Assembly: GCA_902788605.1 (NCBI GenBank)
Contig: CADAKX010000052.1
Span: 1 to 32,757, forward strand
DNA length: 32,757 nt
Reading direction: 5' to 3'
Source: an uncultured Prevotellaceae bacterium
GTDB taxonomy: Bacteria; Bacteroidota; Bacteroidia; Bacteroidales; Bacteroidaceae
Shown here: one piece after another, positions 124-14,656 of the stretch
Layout: each line of letters starts with the position of its first letter
Numbering within the stretch: the first letter of the stretch is position 1
Notes under the pieces: model-generated
Databases searched by the model: none
Told to the model about the DNA's origin: nothing
The model's input: only the letters and a program-made list of their open reading frames with translations
Program-made: the position numbers and the translations under genes

Positions 124-161
124 GGATGTGCGGGGAATCTTCGGATGTGCGGGGAATCTTC
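124..161. repeat. Perfect 19-bp tandem duplication
   Basis: GGATGTGCGGGGAATCTTC occurs at 124-142 and again, without mismatch or spacer, at 143-161. It lies just downstream of the rRNA terminator and next to the octamer array. Confidence 0.9.
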
Positions 162-164
162 GAA

Positions 165-267
165 GGTGCGGGGGTACGGAGGTGCGTGGGTACGAGAATA
201 GACTTAGTACATGATAAAGCAAAACTATTCTCGTACCTCCGTACCCTCGCACCTCCGTACCTCCTAA
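165..267. repeat. Inverted array of 8-bp repeats (hairpin-forming)
   Basis: The left arm (about 165-209) is built of octamers alternating between GAGGTGCG-like and GGGGTACG-like units and ends in GAGAATAG. The right arm (about 225-267) starts with CTATTCTCGTACC and carries the complementary octamers TCCGTACC, CTCGCACC and TCCGTACC. The arms are inverted copies, except that the right arm has one extra octamer. The spacer is about 20 bases and AT-rich. A transcript could form a long imperfect hairpin. Confidence 0.8.
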
Positions 268-271
268 GAAT

Positions 272-337
272 GCCATTTACGGTTGCTAAGTACGCTGTTT
301 ACGATGCGTAAGTATGGTATTTACGAGTGCTAAGTGA
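272..337. repeat. Three degenerate 22-bp tandem repeats
   Basis: Three consecutive units of exactly 22 bases (272-293, 294-315, 316-337) share the pattern g-n-n-n-TTTACG-n-n-n-GC/CG-TAAGT. The third starts GGTATTTACGAGTGCTAAGT. They are not separated by spacers. Confidence 0.75.
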
Positions 338-8226: not shown

Positions 8227-8324
8227 AGTGCAGAGTTTAGAGTGTAGAGTTTAGAGTTTGCTTCCGCTGTAGAGCATGCCCCATCTTAAGGCGGTAGCAA
8301 ACTCTACACTCTAAACTCTACACT
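8227..8324. repeat. Heptad-repeat palindrome, copy A (intergenic)
   Basis: The left arm (8227-8267) consists of 7-base units AGAGTTT and AGAGTGT followed by GCTTCCGC. The right arm (8291-8324) starts GCGGTAGC and continues with the complementary heptamers AAACTCT, ACACTCT and AAACTCT. The left arm has one extra heptamer and two mismatches. The loop is about 23 bases. It fills nearly the whole gap between argH and the SRPBCC gene. The same arm sequences recur inside argS at 13231-13332. Confidence 0.92.
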
Positions 8325-8329
8325 ATTAA

Positions 8330-8743
8330 TTATACATAAGGAACCTGTGCCAGTGCATCGGCTATCTTCTCCACACCATCCTGGATGGGACCACTCACCA
8401 TGGCGGCGAGCATAAAGGGAATGTCGGCCTTTACCGTTACCTTCATTTTTGATGTGGTATCATTGACGGGCAACACCTGAATCCAGAGGTTGAATGGCAT
8501 GGGCGACTGTACCGTCTCGAATTTGACGCACTTAGGCTCCTCGCGCTCCACAACTTTCAGTGTAATCTGTCCAACGGGTGGTACGTTGATGCTCACAGAG
8601 TCCTGATCGAAGGAGAAGTCCTTCAACTTATCTTCAGGGATGCGGTCACGCACACGTTCCAAGTTACTCAGATCACTGATGTTGCGATAGACGGCCTCCT
8701 GTGAATAGGGTACCTGCTTAATGCTGCTTTCGAATTTCTTCAT
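8330..8743 (-). CDS. SRPBCC-fold (START/Bet v1-like) protein
   Basis: 137 residues with no signal peptide, so probably cytoplasmic. The pattern matches small polyketide cyclase/SRPBCC proteins: an N-terminal strand-helix (FESSIKQVPYSQEAVYRNIS), a central beta sheet (SVSINVPPVGQITLKVVERE, CVKFETV, LWIQVLPVND, SKMKVTVKADIP) and a C-terminal helix (VEKIADALAQVPY). Such proteins bind hydrophobic ligands; no ligand can be named. It starts nine bases after pyrE and is presumably co-transcribed with it. Confidence 0.8.
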   Translation of the reverse strand: MKKFESSIKQVPYSQEAVYRNISDLSNLERVRDRIPEDKLKDFSFDQDSVSINVPPVGQITLKVVEREEPKCVKFETVQSPMPFNLWIQVLPVNDTTSKMKVTVKADIPFMLAAMVSGPIQDGVEKIADALAQVPYV

Positions 8744-8752
8744 AGCTTCTTC

Positions 8753-9382
8753 TTATACGCCCCAGACACTGGGATCCTTTCTCCATTCAGCCAATACAGC
8801 CTTTTCTTCTTCTTTGATATAGCCTGTTTCAGCGGCCTGCTCCACAACAGCGTTGTAGTCGCTCAGTGTGATGAGCTTAACATTTGCTTCGCGGAAAGCC
8901 TCCTCGGCCACGGGGAAACCATAGGTAAACGAGGCCACCATACCGATAACCTCTACGCCATATTCCCGCAGGGCTGCAACGGCCTTCAAAGAGCTACCAC
9001 CAGTAGAAATCAGATCCTCTACTACGATAACCTTTGAACCCTTCTTAATCTCACCTTCCACCTGGTTGCCCATGCCGTGATCTTTTGGCTTTGGGCGCAC
9101 GTAGCAGTAGGGCAGACCCAGTTCCTCGGCTACCAGCGCACCCTGTGCAATGGCACCTGTGGCAACACCTGCCACTGCATCAGCCTCAGGGAAGTTCTCC
9201 TGAATGACGTGACATAGTTCCAGTTTTACAAAAGAGCGCAGACTGGGGTGACCCAGTGTCTTGCGGTTGTCGGTATAAATAGGTGATTTCCAACCGCTGG
9301 CCCATGTGAATGGGTCGTTGGGCTGCAACTTGATGGCTTTGATGTCCATCAGCTTCTGAGCGAATTGTTTCTTGATATCCAT
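8753..9382 (-). CDS. pyrE: Orotate phosphoribosyltransferase
   Basis: 209 residues, normal for PyrE. It converts orotate and PRPP to orotidine 5'-phosphate in pyrimidine synthesis. The PRPP-binding signature VIVVEDLISTGGS is intact near residue 120, preceded by the flexible-loop region PKPKDHGMGNQVEG. The N-terminal NPFTWASGWKSPIYTDNR segment is characteristic of orotate binding. It is the first gene of a minus-strand transcript with its own -7 box 24 bases upstream, and heads the SRPBCC, argH and lipoprotein genes. Confidence 0.97.
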   Translation of the reverse strand: MDIKKQFAQKLMDIKAIKLQPNDPFTWASGWKSPIYTDNRKTLGHPSLRSFVKLELCHVIQENFPEADAVAGVATGAIAQGALVAEELGLPYCYVRPKPKDHGMGNQVEGEIKKGSKVIVVEDLISTGGSSLKAVAALREYGVEVIGMVASFTYGFPVAEEAFREANVKLITLSDYNAVVEQAAETGYIKEEEKAVLAEWRKDPSVWGV

Positions 9383-9405
9383 AACGTTACGTTAATTTTT
9401 GCCTG

Positions 9406-9413
9406 CAAAGGTA
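9406..9413 (-). promoter_or_regulatory. -7 box of the pyrE transcript
   Basis: On the minus strand TACCTTTG followed by CAGGC is an exact match. The -33 region lies within the purine-rich heptamer array at 9422-9442, and no TTTG is visible there, so either the -33 box is weak or it was displaced by the repeats. Confidence 0.7.
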
Positions 9414-9421
9414 CGAAAAAA

Positions 9422-9442
9422 AGTGAAGAGTGAAGAGTGAAG
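9422..9442. repeat. Three perfect heptamers (AGTGAAG)
   Basis: AGTGAAG occurs three times in tandem, followed by AGAGA, between comF and pyrE. The period and purine bias match the heptamers of the palindromes at 8227 and 13231, but there is no inverted arm. Confidence 0.88.
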
Positions 9443-9461
9443 AGAGAAAAATTTTAATTAT

Positions 9462-10166
9462 TTACTCTTTCGTATAGCCAATGGAGAGCACACTGATGCG
9501 TACACCTTCTGCCTTGGCCAGTTCCTGAGCACAGGCGATGACGGTGGCGCCAGTGGTCACTACATCGTCAATAATCAAAAGGTGCTTGCCTTTTATCTTC
9601 TCTTCTTTCACTAAATGGAAGGCTTCCTTGATGTTTTCTCGTCGCTCAAAGTGTGTCAGATGAGTCTGACTCTGAGTGAAGCGTTTTCTTACCACTACGT
9701 CGTTATAGATAGGAAGTCCTGTCTCCATGCTGATACCTCGTGCCACTATCAGACTCTGATTATAGCCGCGTTTCCAGTTTCTTTTTCTTGTGATGGGCAG
9801 TGGGACGATGGCGTCGATACCGTCAAAGAATCCGTAGGCCATGTGGCGTTCGGCCATGAGTTGACCAATCATCTCACCCATCTCCATTTGTCCGTGATAT
9901 TTAATGTCGTACACCAGATGGCTGGGGGCGGAGTGGGGACGGAAGTAGAACCATGCAGAAGCCTTCTCGATGGGAAACTGTCCCCAGAACAGTCTTGCCA
10001 TCCAGTTGTCGTAGGGCGATTCACAAAAGGGCGTTACGGGCAGTTCTTTTGTGCATTGAGCGCATAGCAGCATGTCTTCCGCATCTAGTCTATCGTCACA
10101 AATGGCGCATCTTCTGGGAGAAATCAAATCCAGAAGATCACTCAGCAAACTCGTTTTCCTCTTCAT
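9462..10166 (-). CDS. comF: ComF family phosphoribosyltransferase-like protein
   Basis: 234 residues. The N terminus carries a zinc-finger-type pair, CAIC (20-23) and CAQC (35-38). The C-terminal half is a type I phosphoribosyltransferase domain with the PRPP motif LLIIDDVVTTGAT near 194-206 and the family segment RKRNWKRGYNQSLIVARG. ComF proteins are linked to natural DNA uptake in Firmicutes and Proteobacteria; in Bacteroidetes the role is not established. Its start overlaps the end of recX by 29 bases, indicating translational coupling in prmC-recX-comF. Confidence 0.92.
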   Translation of the reverse strand: MKRKTSLLSDLLDLISPRRCAICDDRLDAEDMLLCAQCTKELPVTPFCESPYDNWMARLFWGQFPIEKASAWFYFRPHSAPSHLVYDIKYHGQMEMGEMIGQLMAERHMAYGFFDGIDAIVPLPITRKRNWKRGYNQSLIVARGISMETGLPIYNDVVVRKRFTQSQTHLTHFERRENIKEAFHLVKEEKIKGKHLLIIDDVVTTGATVIACAQELAKAEGVRISVLSIGYTKE

Positions 10167-10614
10167 CAGTAACCTCTATACACTGTTTGATGATATCCAT
10201 GGTAAACCCGCGTCCCATCGCATATTTGATGAGTTTCATGGTCGCCTCATATTCGCTATTGGCCTTGATACCCTTGCGCTTCTGTTTGAGCATCGGTCGA
10301 AGAATCTTCAGATATTCCTCATCGTCCACTTCGTCGAGCAAAGGCTTACTGATGCTGTCGTCAATACGTTTCATCCAAAGCGCCTGTTCCACCTTCCGGC
10401 GTCCCCATTTGCTGTAGCGTATCTTGTCGTAGATGAAAGCGCGGGCAAAGCGCTCGTCGTCAACGTATCTCTCTGTAATCAGGCGCTCCATCACTTCTGC
10501 CTGCTCTTCCTCGCTAATGCCCCACTGTCGCATTTTATCCAGCATCTCCTGCTGACAGTGTTCGCTGCGGGCACAGAGGTCCGTGAGCTTCTGGTAGGCC
10601 TGTTGACCCGTCAT
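10138..10614 (-). CDS. recX: RecX family regulatory protein
   Basis: The frame opens at 10632 (MLIRKEMTGQQ...), but the internal ATG at 10614 (MTGQQAYQKL) better matches the family N terminus and avoids overlap with prmC; it gives 158 residues. RecX proteins are built of three-helix repeats and modulate RecA filaments. Visible segments are CARSEHCQQEMLDKMRQWG, the ITERYVDDERFARAFIYDK signature, and SKWGRRKVEQALWMK. The gene sits between prmC and comF and overlaps both coding neighbours slightly if the longer start is used. Confidence 0.92.
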   Translation of the reverse strand: MTGQQAYQKLTDLCARSEHCQQEMLDKMRQWGISEEEQAEVMERLITERYVDDERFARAFIYDKIRYSKWGRRKVEQALWMKRIDDSISKPLLDEVDDEEYLKILRPMLKQKRKGIKANSEYEATMKLIKYAMGRGFTMDIIKQCIEVTDEEENEFAE

Positions 10615-10622
10615 TTCTTTTC

Positions 10623-11531
10623 TTATAAGCATGATTTCGTGAATCTTTGTTTGCCGAATTGGTCGTTTTTGATTTCTGTATGTGAGAACCCTTCTTCGCT
10701 GAGCATCTGTTGCATCTCGGTGACATATAAGGGATTAATCTCGAAAAAGAGCGCTCCACCTGGATTTAATGCCTTTGCAGCATAGCGGGCAATGGCACGA
10801 TAGAACAGCAGTGGATCGTCATCGGGTACGAAAAGTGCCAGCGCAGGCTCATGTTCCAGCACGTTTTTCTCCATCATGTCCTTTTCTTTTGTGCAGATAT
10901 ATGGCGGATTACTCACTATAACGTCAAATTCGTTGGAAGGGAGTTGGAAGGGAGATGGAAGGGAGGTGGAAGGGAGAAGCTGGGGAGAAGGAGTAATTTT
11001 TAGAATGTCCTGTTTTTTTAATTTTACGTTTACTCCCATTCTTTTGGCATTCTCTGCTGCTATCCGCAGGGCATCCTCGCTGATATCCCAGGCCGTCACT
11101 GCTGCGTCAGGCAGTTCTGCAGCCAGCGTGCAGGCGATACATCCGCTACCTGTGCCAATATCGAGAATTTTATCGCAGCGGACTTTTTCGGACTTTTCCG
11201 TATCAGTCTGCTGTCGTCCGCTGCTAAGAATCCATTCACAGAGTTCGTAGGTCTCAGGTCTTGGAATCAGCACGCCAGGCTCCACATGGAAGGTCCTGCC
11301 GCCAAACTCCGCCTCACCTAAAACATACTGTACGGGTTCGCCAGTCAGCAGACGTTGCGTAATTTCCTCTAAGAGTTTTTGGTCATCTGTGGATAATTGT
11401 GTATCTTTGCCGATGAATAAGTCGGATGGCATGAGTCCGAAGCGAACTTCGTACACCATACGGGCAATAGCCTTCGCCTCGTAGTCATCATAGACCTGCG
11501 TCAACTGGCGCCATAATTCATTATAAGTCAT
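10623..11531 (-). CDS. prmC: Release factor glutamine methyltransferase PrmC, with an in-frame repeat insertion
   Basis: 302 residues against about 280 usual. It methylates the GGQ glutamine of peptide release factors. The N-terminal helical domain is followed by the SAM motif ILDIGTGSGCIACTLA (126-131 core) and the catalytic NPPY (208-211). Between the two, residues about 179-199 form a Pro/Ser/Leu-rich insert (TPSPQLLPSTSLPSPFQLP) encoded by four tandem 11-bp repeats at 10933-10976 plus flanking sequence. The frame is kept, so the protein may remain active with a longer surface loop. The predicted promoter leaves almost no leader. First gene of prmC-recX-comF. Confidence 0.95.
   Translation of the reverse strand: MTYNELWRQLTQVYDDYEAKAIARMVYEVRFGLMPSDLFIGKDTQLSTDDQKLLEEITQRLLTGEPVQYVLGEAEFGGRTFHVEPGVLIPRPETYELCEWILSSGRQQTDTEKSEKVRCDKILDIGTGSGCIACTLAAELPDAAVTAWDISEDALRIAAENAKRMGVNVKLKKQDILKITPSPQLLPSTSLPSPFQLPSNEFDVIVSNPPYICTKEKDMMEKNVLEHEPALALFVPDDDPLLFYRAIARYAAKALNPGGALFFEINPLYVTEMQQMLSEEGFSHTEIKNDQFGKQRFTKSCL
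10933..10976. repeat. Four tandem 11-bp repeats inside prmC
   Basis: On the plus strand TTGGAAGGGAG, TTGGAAGGGAG, ATGGAAGGGAG and GTGGAAGGGAG follow one another without spacers; only the first base or two vary. A looser copy continues to about 10993. Total insertion relative to typical PrmC is roughly 20 codons. Confidence 0.92.
11378..11409 (+). promoter_or_regulatory. Probable ribD promoter located inside prmC
   Basis: On the plus strand TTTG (11378-11381), a 20-base spacer and TATCTTTG (11402-11409) form a near-ideal Bacteroidetes promoter. It would give ribD a leader of about 135 bases running antisense to the prmC 5' end. No better box lies closer to ribD. Confidence 0.6.
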
Positions 11532-11535
11532 ACTG

Positions 11536-11567
11536 CAAAATTACACAAAATATGGAAACCGACCAAA
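11536..11567 (-). promoter_or_regulatory. prmC promoter, overlapping the start of ribD
   Basis: On the minus strand the -33 box TTTG (11567-11564), a 20-base spacer and the -7 box TAATTTTG (11543-11536) fit the consensus. The -33 box lies inside the ribD coding region. Transcription would begin within a few bases of the prmC start codon at 11531, so prmC mRNA may be leaderless. Confidence 0.65.
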
Positions 11568-12517
11568 TTTCTTTGGATAAAAAATATATGCGCCGCTGTC
11601 TGCAACTGGCGCAGAACGGACAGCAGAATGCAAAGCCGAATCCAATGGTGGGAGCTGTGATAGTGGCTGATGGTAGAATCATTGGTGAGGGGTATCATGT
11701 GCGCTGCGGACAGGGGCATGCAGAGGTCAATGCTTTTGCAAGTGTCAGCGCAGAGGATGAAAGACTGTTACCTGAGGCCACAATCTATGTGTCGCTGGAA
11801 CCCTGTTCGCATTATGGGAAGACACCTCCTTGTGCCGATTTGATTGTTAAGAAGGGGGTGATGCGTGCGGTTGTAGGCTGTATTGATGAGTTTGCCGAGG
11901 TGCAGGGTAGGGGCATCCGGAAACTGAGGGATGCTGGTATAGAGGTGACTGTGGGTGTACTGGAAGATGAGTGTAAGGCTCTGAATCGCCGCTTCTTCAC
12001 CTTCCATCGTCTCTCGCGCCCGTACATTATATTAAAATGGGCACAGACGGCTAACGGTTTTATTGATGATAACGGTAAGGCTTTGGCTATCTCGACACCC
12101 TTTACGCAGATGCTCTCGCATAAGTTGCGTGCTGAGGAGGATGCCATCCTCGTGGGACGTGTAACCAATGAGCGCGAGCATCCACAGCTCACCGTGCGTC
12201 AATGGGATGGTCCCAACCCCAAACGACTTGTTATTGACCGTCAGCATCCGCTGAATCTGGAGGTGCTCCATGCCCATCAAATACAATCGCTGATTGTCGA
12301 AGGCGGTAAGAAAACGCTCGATTCTTTCCTGGAACAAGGCTTGTGGGATGAAATCCGTGTGGAGACGAATATGCGTTTGACGGTAGGTGGTGGAACAAGA
12401 GCGCCACAACTTCCGGCTGATGCAGAAGTCGTGGCGCAACATGATTATGATGGTAATATGATTATTTCCTACCGAAGTCGGCTGGCACCTCGCCCCATTT
12501 CTGGGTCTCCCATTTGA
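11552..12517 (+). CDS. ribD: Bifunctional riboflavin biosynthesis deaminase/reductase RibD
   Basis: 321 residues. The N-terminal deaminase domain has the zinc ligands in HAEVNAF (His56, proton shuttle Glu58) and PCSHYGKTPPC (Cys85, Cys94). The C-terminal reductase domain begins RPYIILKWAQTANGFID and includes SLIVEGG. Together they convert the GTP cyclohydrolase II product to the ribitylamino intermediate of riboflavin. The segment between LVIDRQHPLN and IQSLIVEGG is about 35-40 residues shorter than I would expect from relatives, without frame loss. The 3' end overlaps the convergent RNase H gene by 56 bases. Confidence 0.94.
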   Translation: METDQISLDKKYMRRCLQLAQNGQQNAKPNPMVGAVIVADGRIIGEGYHVRCGQGHAEVNAFASVSAEDERLLPEATIYVSLEPCSHYGKTPPCADLIVKKGVMRAVVGCIDEFAEVQGRGIRKLRDAGIEVTVGVLEDECKALNRRFFTFHRLSRPYIILKWAQTANGFIDDNGKALAISTPFTQMLSHKLRAEEDAILVGRVTNEREHPQLTVRQWDGPNPKRLVIDRQHPLNLEVLHAHQIQSLIVEGGKKTLDSFLEQGLWDEIRVETNMRLTVGGGTRAPQLPADAEVVAQHDYDGNMIISYRSRLAPRPISGSPI

Positions 12518-12926
12518 TGATGGGATTGCGGTAATTATGTGTGCGTAGCCAATTCTCGGCGCGTTGGATAATCTGATAGAGCGGCTCCGTCTCAGGGGTC
12601 CGCTCTAATTTTGTCTTACATTGTCGTTTTGAGACCCAGAGGATGGCATTGTAGGAATCAGAGTAGATGGTTTTGTCATGCAAGCCCTTCTGCCAACAGA
12701 GAGCCAGGGCGTGAACGATAGCCAGGAACTCACCGATATTGTTTGTACCTTTCATTGGGCCAAAATGGAATACCTGTGCACCTGTCTGCAGGTCGATAGC
12801 CTGATACTCCATGGGTCCAGGGTTGCCGCTGCAGGCTGCGTCCACAGCCCACGCGTCTGCCCTTACCTCCATGGGCAAGGGCAGTACGGTGTCGTGTCTA
12901 TAGTCGGGAGGGTTCTGCATATACAT
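12462..12926 (-). CDS. rnhA: Ribonuclease H type I
   Basis: 154 residues. The retroviral-type RNase H fold is recognisable from the first strand AWAVDAACSGNPGP (catalytic Asp29), GTNNIGEFLAIVHAL (Glu66), TIYSDSYNAILWV (Asp90) and the C-terminal EVPADFGRK (probable fourth acid Asp150). It degrades RNA in RNA-DNA hybrids. There is no N-terminal viroplasmin-type domain. The gene follows argS by 32 bases on the same strand and runs convergently into ribD, overlapping it by 56 bases. Confidence 0.92.
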   Translation of the reverse strand: MYMQNPPDYRHDTVLPLPMEVRADAWAVDAACSGNPGPMEYQAIDLQTGAQVFHFGPMKGTNNIGEFLAIVHALALCWQKGLHDKTIYSDSYNAILWVSKRQCKTKLERTPETEPLYQIIQRAENWLRTHNYRNPIIKWETQKWGEVPADFGRK

Positions 12927-12934
12927 CAGTGCTT

Positions 12935-12953
12935 GTTGCTATGGCATAGCAAC
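12935..12953 (-). other. Small perfect hairpin between argS and the RNase H gene
   Basis: GTTGCTAT and ATAGCAAC form an 8-bp stem around a 3-base loop in the 32-base gap. There is no T-run, so it is not an obvious intrinsic terminator; it may affect mRNA processing or the translation of the downstream gene. Confidence 0.6.
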
Positions 12954-12958
12954 ATACA

Positions 12959-14626
12959 TTACATTCGCTCGGGCACCTCAATGCCCAGCAGACCCATACC
13001 GTTTTTGATAATCTTTGCTACGTTCTTTGCCAGCATCAGGCGTACGGCCTTCTTCTGCTCATCGGGCTCGTTGAGGATGCTGAAGTCGTGGTAGAACTGG
13101 TTGAATACCTTCGTCAACTCGTAGCAGTAGTTGGCGATACCAGAGGGAGAGTAGTCCTTACCTGCCTGCTCCACGGCAGCGCCAAACTCAGACATCTTCT
13201 GGATAAGCTCGATTTCCTTCTCACTTAATTTAGAGTTTAGAGTGTAGAGTGTAGAGTTTGCTACCGCAGTTCCATCAGCGGCAGGCTGAGCGGTAGCAAA
13301 CTCTACACTCTCAGTTCTACACTCTACACTCTTCCGAAGGATACTCCTTATTCTCGCATACGTGTACTGGATGAAAGGACCGGTGTTGCCGTTGAAGTCG
13401 ATACTCTCCTCGGGGTTGAACAGCATGTTCTTTCTTGCGTCCACCTTCAGGATGAAGTACTTCAGGGCACCCATACCCACGATACGGGCAATCTCGCGGC
13501 GCTCCTCTTCGGTCATATCGTCAAACTTACCCAGTTCCATAGAGGTCTTATAGGCATCCTCTACCATCAGTGCCATCAGGTCGTCAGCGTCAACAACGGT
13601 TCCTTCGCGGCTCTTCTCCTAAGCGGTCCAGCAGGATAGAGAGTACCTGGAAGTGGTAGTTCTGCTCGTTGCCCACTACATAAATCATCTTGTCGATGGG
13701 GTAGTCTTGGAAACGCATTTCGGCAGTACCGATATCCTGTGTCATATATACAGAGGTGCCGTCAGAACGCAACAGCAGTTTCTGGTCCAGACCCTCGTTG
13801 GTCAGGTCGGCCCAAACCGAGTTGTCCTCATGGCGCTCAAAGAGACCCTTGGCGAGACCTTCTTCTACCTTAGCCTTACCTTTCAGATAGGTCTGGCTCT
13901 CGTAGTAAATCTTATCGAAGCCAACGCCCATCTTCTTGTATGTCTCGTCGAAACCGGCATATACCCAGTTGTTCATCTTTTCCCACAAGGCGCGTACCTC
14001 GGGATCGTTGTTCTCCCATTTCACCAGCATCTCGTGAGCCTCCTTGATGAGCGGAGCCTCCTGCTTAGCCTTTTCTTCATCCATGCCCTGAGCCATGAGT
14101 TCCTTAATCTCCTCACGGTAGTGCTTATCGAAGGCCACGTAGTAGTCACCAATCAGGTGGTCTCCCTTCTTGCCAGATGACTCGGGTGTTTCGCCGTTGC
14201 CGTATTTCAGCCAAGCCAGCATTGACTTACAGATATGAATACCACGGTCGTTTACGATGTTGGTCTTCACCACCTTGTTGCCGTTGGCCTCCATAATCTG
14301 AGCCAGCGACCATCCCAGCAGGTTGTTGCGCACATGACCAAGGTGCAGGGGCTTGTTGGTGTTGGGTGAAGAGTATTCGATCATGACGAGAGGCGAATTC
14401 TCGTCTGCTGTTTTCATGCCGAAGCGGTCGTCCTGGTCCATAGCCTGCAGCAACTGCAGCCATGCACCCTCACCGATGCTCAGGTTCAGGAATCCCTTTA
14501 CTACGTTGAACTTCTCAACAGCCGAACAGTTGTCGGCAGCTGCAGCATCTTTTCGTTTGCCTCCATGTCGTAGAGTGCCTTAACGGCCTCGCCTGCGGCT
14601 TGACTTATCAGTGTCTCGATATTCAT
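12959..14626 (-). pseudogene. argS: Arginyl-tRNA synthetase, interrupted by two frameshifting deletions and carrying an in-frame palindrome
   Basis: Three frames together make a recognisable ArgRS. The true start (14626, MNIETLISQAAGEAVKALYD) runs about 30 codons, then the frame shifts near 14533-14545. The second piece (SAVEKFNVVKGFLNL onward) contains the class I motif NKPLHLGHVRNN and runs until about 13610-13620, where it jumps from LLDRLG to SREGTVVDADDL in another frame. The third piece ends at 12959 with GLLGIEVPERM. By comparison with my knowledge of Bacteroides ArgRS about 40 and about 22 residues are missing at the two junctions, including the Lys-containing part of the KMSKS-equivalent. 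A 102-bp palindrome adds about 34 codons near 13231-13332. As written the gene cannot make a functional enzyme, which is hard to reconcile with its essential role. Confidence 0.88.
13231..13332. repeat. Heptad-repeat palindrome, copy B (in frame inside argS)
   Basis: The left arm (13231-13267) has heptamers AGAGTTT, AGAGTGT, AGAGTGT, AGAGTTT and then GCTACCGC. The right arm (13290-13332) starts GCGGTAGC and carries five complementary heptamers (AAACTCT, ACACTCT, CAGTTCT, ACACTCT, ACACTCT). The total of 102 bases is exactly 34 codons and keeps the argS frame open. The core GCTACCGC/GCGGTAGC and the heptamers are shared with copy A at 8227-8324. Confidence 0.93.
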
Positions 14627-14656
14627 ATACCTCTTATATATATTATATTTGGGGTG

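Follow-up and report, generated by a model that had tools for sequence, protein, structure and literature searches.

Heptad-built palindromes of an uncultured Prevotellaceae bacterium as probable gene-less members of a mobile family partnered by a four-helix-bundle protein

What are the two palindromes, built of 7-nucleotide (nt) repeats or heptads, that lie between genes (copy A) and within argS (copy B) in a 32,757-nt stretch of DNA from an uncultured Prevotellaceae bacterium (contig CADAKX010000052.1; the whole stretch is called the window)? The two copies are probably gene-less members of a family of small mobile palindromes, whose gene-carrying members enclose the gene of a four-helix-bundle protein, the likely partner. 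Most likely they are gene-less relatives of elements like the S23p-carrying intervening sequences of 23S rRNA, and their mobility is likely. A first-pass annotation of the window had proposed two copies of one palindromic element, and both are present: the bacterium's own genome gave 7 unit matches to the core-plus-heptad pattern and 0 control matches. These 7 matches make up five elements: two full ones, A and B, both on C52, and three single units, one each on C37, C43 and C29.

The anatomy of the element was derived from 147 non-redundant aligned units. The alignment revealed a 41-nt unit with the core GCGGNAGC followed by AAAYTCT, three NNACTCT heptads and NNACT, that is, an 8-nt core and four degenerate heptads. 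The edge of the unit is sharp: position 41 carries 1.18 bits of information, but position 42 only 0.14 and position 43 only 0.22 bits. A full element consists of two inverted units around a variable loop, with the cores facing inward and the heptads outward, and full copies measured by unit boundaries are 95-116 bp long in 47 of 50 cases. Alignment to this consensus placed copy A at 8227-8331 and copy B at 13227-13330. Copy A has the layout 41+23+41, with the left unit at 8227-8267 (minus strand, antisense orientation, core GCTTCCGC), an intergenic loop of 23 nt at 8268-8290, which is not of the 3n+1 type, and the right unit at 8291-8331 (plus strand, core GCGGTAGC); its pairing ends near 8324 because the outermost right heptad is degenerate. 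Copy B has the layout 41+22+41, with the left unit at 13227-13267 (minus strand, core GCTACCGC), a 3n+1 loop of 22 nt at 13268-13289 and the right unit at 13290-13330 (plus strand, again core GCGGTAGC). It is contained in frame in the C-terminal part of argS (12959-13576, minus strand), where it is read as the peptide VECRTESVEFATAQPAADGTAVANSTLYTLNSK. The annotation had rightly described an open argS frame and unlike loops in the two copies; the length of exactly 102 bp that it gave for copy B was replaced by 104 bp, and its 34 inserted residues are approximate only, because related argS genes hold other heptad material at that site.

The fixed unit bears on the simplest explanation, in which the heptads are simple repeats grown by slippage, the palindromes arose by chance or by snap-back, and nothing is mobile. 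Bare heptad arrays without a core do exist, in argS of the near relative L187 and in the window itself (AGTGAAG three times, 9422-9444, plus strand, intergenic). The fixed 41-nt length with its sharp edge, together with an 8-nt core conserved across unrelated host genes, largely refutes this explanation, which is therefore considered very unlikely. The two arms of an element were also compared in 56 elements, three of which had mixed arms and were dropped; their likeness did not exceed that of shuffled arms (p 0.25 for 40 elements of one type, p 0.87 for 13 of the other). Pairing is therefore seemingly not maintained, and the arms do not seem to stem from recent snap-back copying; both ideas were rejected. 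The earlier idea that arms grow by slippage was accordingly given up, as the unit is fixed and arms within an element are no more alike than arms between elements.

It was also considered that the hairpins are kept for an action at the RNA level, as terminators, RNase III sites or determinants of mRNA stability, and that their spread is secondary. The predicted folding is strong (-51.8 kcal/mol for the A region and -62.5 kcal/mol for the B region), and RNase III is described in the available part of PMC4990558 as removing the 23S intervening sequence of Coxiella. Against this stand the arms, between which no covariation was found, and the 36 truly single-unit places among 122 non-redundant ones, where a hairpin is impossible. 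(A strict pattern had given 76 'single' places; besides these 36, they include 23 where a second core is present but has diverged, and 17 that belong to the flanks of gene-carrying pairs.) An Rfam scan of four sources likewise placed no RNA family on the elements, the only matches being the L13 leader and tRNAs. A primary role in RNA is thus highly improbable.

The spread of the family was assessed by scanning 299 genomes of the genus with a single pattern, allowing at most one mismatch and using the reversed pattern as control. The core-plus-heptad pattern was present in 110 of the 299 genomes, with a maximum of 58 matches per genome, while the control was found in none (0/299); the heptad-built palindrome class that had been suspected in Prevotella is therefore real and dispersed. 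A second type of unit, with AATCATA in its core, was present in 103 of the 299 genomes, against one control match overall. A scan of named genomes matched at least 117 stretches, and the matches listed from it were mostly in Prevotellaceae or Bacteroidaceae bins, many of them rumen-derived. The element also occurs in the complete chromosome of the isolate Prevotella communis E15-14 (L118, L169). In Fibrella, six loci (of nine among the matches listed; L177 and L179 were left out and L180 was counted as a non-gene copy in the loop test below) have the 41-nt layout with other heptads (TCACTTA, CCGCTCA) and loops of 15-16 nt, and none of the six has an open frame across the element. Outside Bacteroidota, five of nine matches were read (L100, L125, L154, L157, L161; L186, L193, L195 and L202 were left out); these lack heptads and were set aside as chance matches.

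These data also bear on the question of an assembly artefact of metagenome bins. The source assembly of the window is in 90 contigs, and its argS is interrupted outside copy B, where two stretches found in L187 are missing, one of about 110 nt near 14533 and one of about 65 nt near 13620. These gaps (window 13577-14640) split the reading frame and are possibly an assembly fault or real damage. For the family as a whole an artefact is ruled out, since it occurs in the complete chromosome of an isolate and in genomes of Fibrella isolates, and since the separate genome L187 carries copy A with an identical loop; the chance that the palindromes are artefacts is negligible. Copy A is common to the window and L187 and is inherited.

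The reading frame across the copies was then examined. At 63 of the 122 places the frame is open and extends for 50 residues or more on either side. Of these places, 34 hold elements that are full by the strict pattern and 8 hold full elements whose second core has diverged; the others are 20 single units and 1 tandem. These frames were taken by length and not gene by gene, and at least two of them (L028, L170) look like chance frames. Frame 0 was used by 57 of 60 sense units, and all 42 antisense units likewise kept to one frame; the peptide that recurs as a result is VECRVESVEFATA-loop-AVANSTLYTLHST; some of the alternative frames are closed by TAG codons inside the units. Among 106 full elements (the six Fibrella loci and the five chance matches being excluded), the loop length was 1 mod 3 in 45 of 45 in-gene elements and in 21 of 61 others. 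In-gene full copies thus always have a loop compatible with the frame, in a contrast that is partly circular and partly built into the definition of 'in gene', because a gene thrown out of frame would be counted among the others. Enzymes that carry element-derived peptide are ArgS in three genomes (the window, L083 and L149), ClpA in two and the UDP-glucose dehydrogenase (ugd) of the own genome, where clpA, like acpP, fabF and pyrG below, is a name that we presume from the sequence. A predicted element-derived peptide in ArgS or ClpA is VANSTLYTLHST. Within genes, only copies readable in one frame would survive, and they would add about 12-37 residues to tolerant linkers.

The gene-carrying version of the element was recognised at L082 and L205, where inverted units stand 381 and 385 nt apart with a single open reading frame (ORF) between them. 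The enclosed protein matches TIGR02436 (2e-31) and PF05635, '23S rRNA-intervening sequence protein' (1e-28), and is related to the solved structures 2rld (3e-33) and 2gsc (9e-4); by these matches it is a four-helix-bundle protein (TIGR02436/S23p). Profile searches gave no catalytic or transposase family above curated cut-offs. S23p genes, which in the part of PMC4990558 available are described as having no known function, occur as S23p/four-helix-bundle genes in 131 of 150 genomes of the genus. A protein search of the 299 genomes gave a match in 170, and 30 loci were fetched: 11 have flanks with the GCGG core, 18 have the core TATGATTA/TAATCATA (AATCATA) with heptads, and 1 is ambiguous. In 16 elements (7 GCGG, 9 AATCATA) both cores are intact; their interiors measure 376-466 nt and each encodes a four-helix-bundle protein 119-126 aa long. 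One further AATCATA pair spans 563 nt. An inverted-repeat score of at least 31 was obtained for 16 of 17 gene loci and for 4 of 34 cross-locus controls; the scoring covered 17 of the 30 fetched loci, since the signature expression missed 13, and the loci may share repeat types. (In another comparison 3 of 30 controls scored very high, probably through wrong strand handling.) In more distantly related family members the gene is often flanked by arms built from different short tandem repeats, among them AGTTGACA, TAGTCGTT and AAGTTAAG. The window's own genome carries a four-helix-bundle gene with the TAATCATA core on C34. A second helix-bundle gene, flanked by an AATGTTT heptad array, was seen on C22 (L380).

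Core type goes with the clade of the protein between the units. When six flank labels, including 'other' (17 of 63 gene loci), were mapped on a tree of 62 proteins, they needed 10 changes compared to a shuffled mean of 36.1, and none of 200 shufflings was as low. The occurrence of genes and units in the same genomes was counted by hand from tables for the 30 inspected loci, with a threshold of three units because the flanks of the gene itself give up to two matches. Three or more GCGG units are present in each of the 11 genomes that have a GCGG-core gene, compared to 74 of 299 overall (p 1e-7); a threshold of eight, picked after the counts were known, is passed by 42 of 299 overall (p 1e-10). 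For AATCATA-core genes, 14 of 18 genomes have at least three such units, compared to 48 of 299 (p 2e-9), and 17 of 18 have at least one.

This association bears on another explanation, namely that an unrelated transposase acting on hairpins, for example of the RAYT or IS200-IS605 type, moves the palindromes and that the four-helix-bundle gene is a passenger. Hairpin substrates fit single-strand transposases, the inverted repeats look like the ends of miniature inverted-repeat transposable elements (MITEs), and the enclosed protein is the one without a catalytic family match. A passenger gene fits less well with the helix-bundle protein being encoded in 16 of 16 clean interiors and with the flank type tracking the protein tree. 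We consider an unrelated transposase unlikely.

Host sites shared between genomes showed turnover of the elements. At one position in argS, full copies occur in the window and, with TTCACTC heptads, in L149; L083 carries one unit only, and L187 has four to five bare heptads in a row that are of a different type. For clpA, 5 of 10 loci yielded output: at a first site a full AATCATA element in the own genome corresponds to a full GCGG element in G315, to heptads alone in G018 and to nothing in G009 and G015; at a second site the own genome has a GCGG single unit, G018 and G315 have heptads, and G009 and G015 have native sequence of similar length, so that this site represents replacement and not insertion. 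The gap between acpP and fabF holds a heptad element in seven loci and another tandem-repeat palindrome in L145, whose arm matches the flank of a helix-bundle gene in L241; pyrG is also among the sites with different families or none. The palindrome in L145 (7460-7830) was seen to consist of 8-9-nt units, GGAGTTAAA and then GACAATAG. One and the same host site can hold different families or none. The single-unit copies, the several core families, the gene-carrying versions and the repeated occupation of sites by different families all go beyond the first-pass annotation.

Several observations weigh against a mobile family partnered by the four-helix-bundle protein. No clean nucleotide-level empty site was found among the compared loci or in the near relative G315 (where ugd gave heptad matches only), and no insertion length or target duplication was obtained; the single unit at the second clpA site brings no net gain. 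Some inverted core pairs at other spacings (L109, L114, L131, L176, L220, L271) enclose either nothing that is a gene or genes of ordinary appearance; they were read as neighbouring separate elements. The GCGG core stands beside none of the own genome's four family matches, and many genomes rich in GCGG units have no GCGG-core gene among the 30 fetched loci; genome relatedness also inflates both co-occurrence p-values. Several genomes carry the gene at one common locus, which by position suggests inheritance over frequent movement of the gene-carrying form. Viral contigs hold units without a close relative of the protein (one tblastn query), and these units favour frame 0 less strongly (6 of 10 sense units, 2 of 3 antisense units). 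A phage origin of the gene was also tried and rejected, since tblastn with one protein query, which detects close relatives only, gave no relative in 6 viral-contig pattern matches. Among 58 single units on viral contigs (L383-L439), the right flank alone was common in 7 pairs, the left alone in 2 and both in 3, and these units behave as if marking joints between modules.

Taking these points together, gene-less copies of a mobile family with a four-helix-bundle partner remain the favoured reading. The anatomy, the spread, the reading frame, the gene between the units, the co-segregation of core and protein and the sharing of sites were directly established; from them we infer movement, core recognition, an enzyme and a role of the heptads. 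The association with one protein suggests that this protein may recognise the core; each four-helix-bundle protein would recognise its own. With the help of a cellular polymerase or recombinase, it would spread both gene-carrying and gene-less copies. Genome-specific heptads at shared sites suggest that the heptads may act as short homology for entry or exchange; the heptad arms would aid entry at sites that already have heptads, and one family would replace another at a host site. The four-helix-bundle protein presumably resembles the Avd proteins of diversity-generating retroelements. A wider reading is possible, though we lean against it: four-helix-bundle/S23p genes would mark out an extensive superfamily of mobile elements, so far unrecognised, within the Bacteroidota, with ends of 7-10-nt tandem repeats specific to each protein clade; an Avd-like protein would guide the element's RNA or single-stranded DNA through a polymerase acting in trans, the heptads would be homology arms by which copies overwrite one another, and in-frame palindromes of the Rickettsia type and 23S rRNA intervening sequences would be outposts.

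Other repeats were observed beside these elements. A palindrome of another kind lies near the start of the window (152-274), directly past what appears by eye to be the end of an rRNA gene; its arms of 50 nt are made of the 8-nt units GGTACGGA/GGTGCGTG around a 23-nt loop, a layout that suggests kinship with the heptad class. An 11-nt tandem array of four copies (TGGAAGGGAGN, 10934-10988) lies within an ORF (10623-11531, minus strand), which we take to be prmC, and leaves its frame open. At L027 (4150-5050) a GxxExxY protein gene (TIGR04256, PDDEXK_3) is flanked on either side by repeats whose units resemble TTTCTGCGA; this may be a parallel class of elements.

A search of full-text literature, whose coverage did not extend to subscription journals and preprints, gave nothing describing the heptad-palindrome class. 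Among known systems, Rickettsia palindromic elements, of about 100-150 bp, also occur between genes. The first-pass annotation had named them as the precedent, and with 63 of 122 places in frame in long ORFs and nearly always a single reading frame, the comparison is apt. Judged by description, both are palindromes of roughly this size in many copies and in frame in protein genes, the part of PMC3733652 available describing the Rickettsia elements as palindromes read through in frame within open reading frames. The Prevotella elements differ in having arms of four degenerate heptads with an inward 8-nt core, in their common single units and gene-carrying versions, and in the phylum of the host.

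Two other kinds of small dispersed repeat were compared. MITEs, for example BrickBuilt of Porphyromonas, are likewise short, gene-less and present in many copies, with terminal inverted repeats and a gene-carrying partner with common ends. Here the partner is a helix-bundle protein without a recognised transposase domain, and no target duplication was established. The REP/RAYT palindromes, tagged units of 20-40 bp that go with a RAYT gene, are also small dispersed palindromes and occur in many bacteria; the heptad elements are set apart from them by description, being longer, heptad-built and often in frame.

The gene-carrying relatives resemble the S23p intervening sequences. In the accessible text of PMC4990558, the Coxiella 23S intervening sequence has 428 nt, an S23p ORF and three tandem heptamers upstream of it, and inverted repeats are mentioned for S23p intervening elements; the authors there call the sequence selfish and raise mobility only as a hypothesis. 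The gene-carrying relatives (and not the window copies) similarly hold a single S23p/four-helix-bundle ORF between inverted repeats, in 458-548 nt. Unlike the rRNA intervening sequences, the many copies observed here sit in protein genes or in the gaps separating them, alongside gene-less versions; the window copies too are outside rRNA genes, intergenic (A) and in argS (B). The widespread heptad palindromes thus join two known kinds of element, the palindromes of the Rickettsia type and the S23p intervening elements. The tie to dispersed palindromes would give the very common four-helix-bundle genes a concrete, testable role, and suggests their protein as a possible partner of palindromes that are read in frame within proteins.

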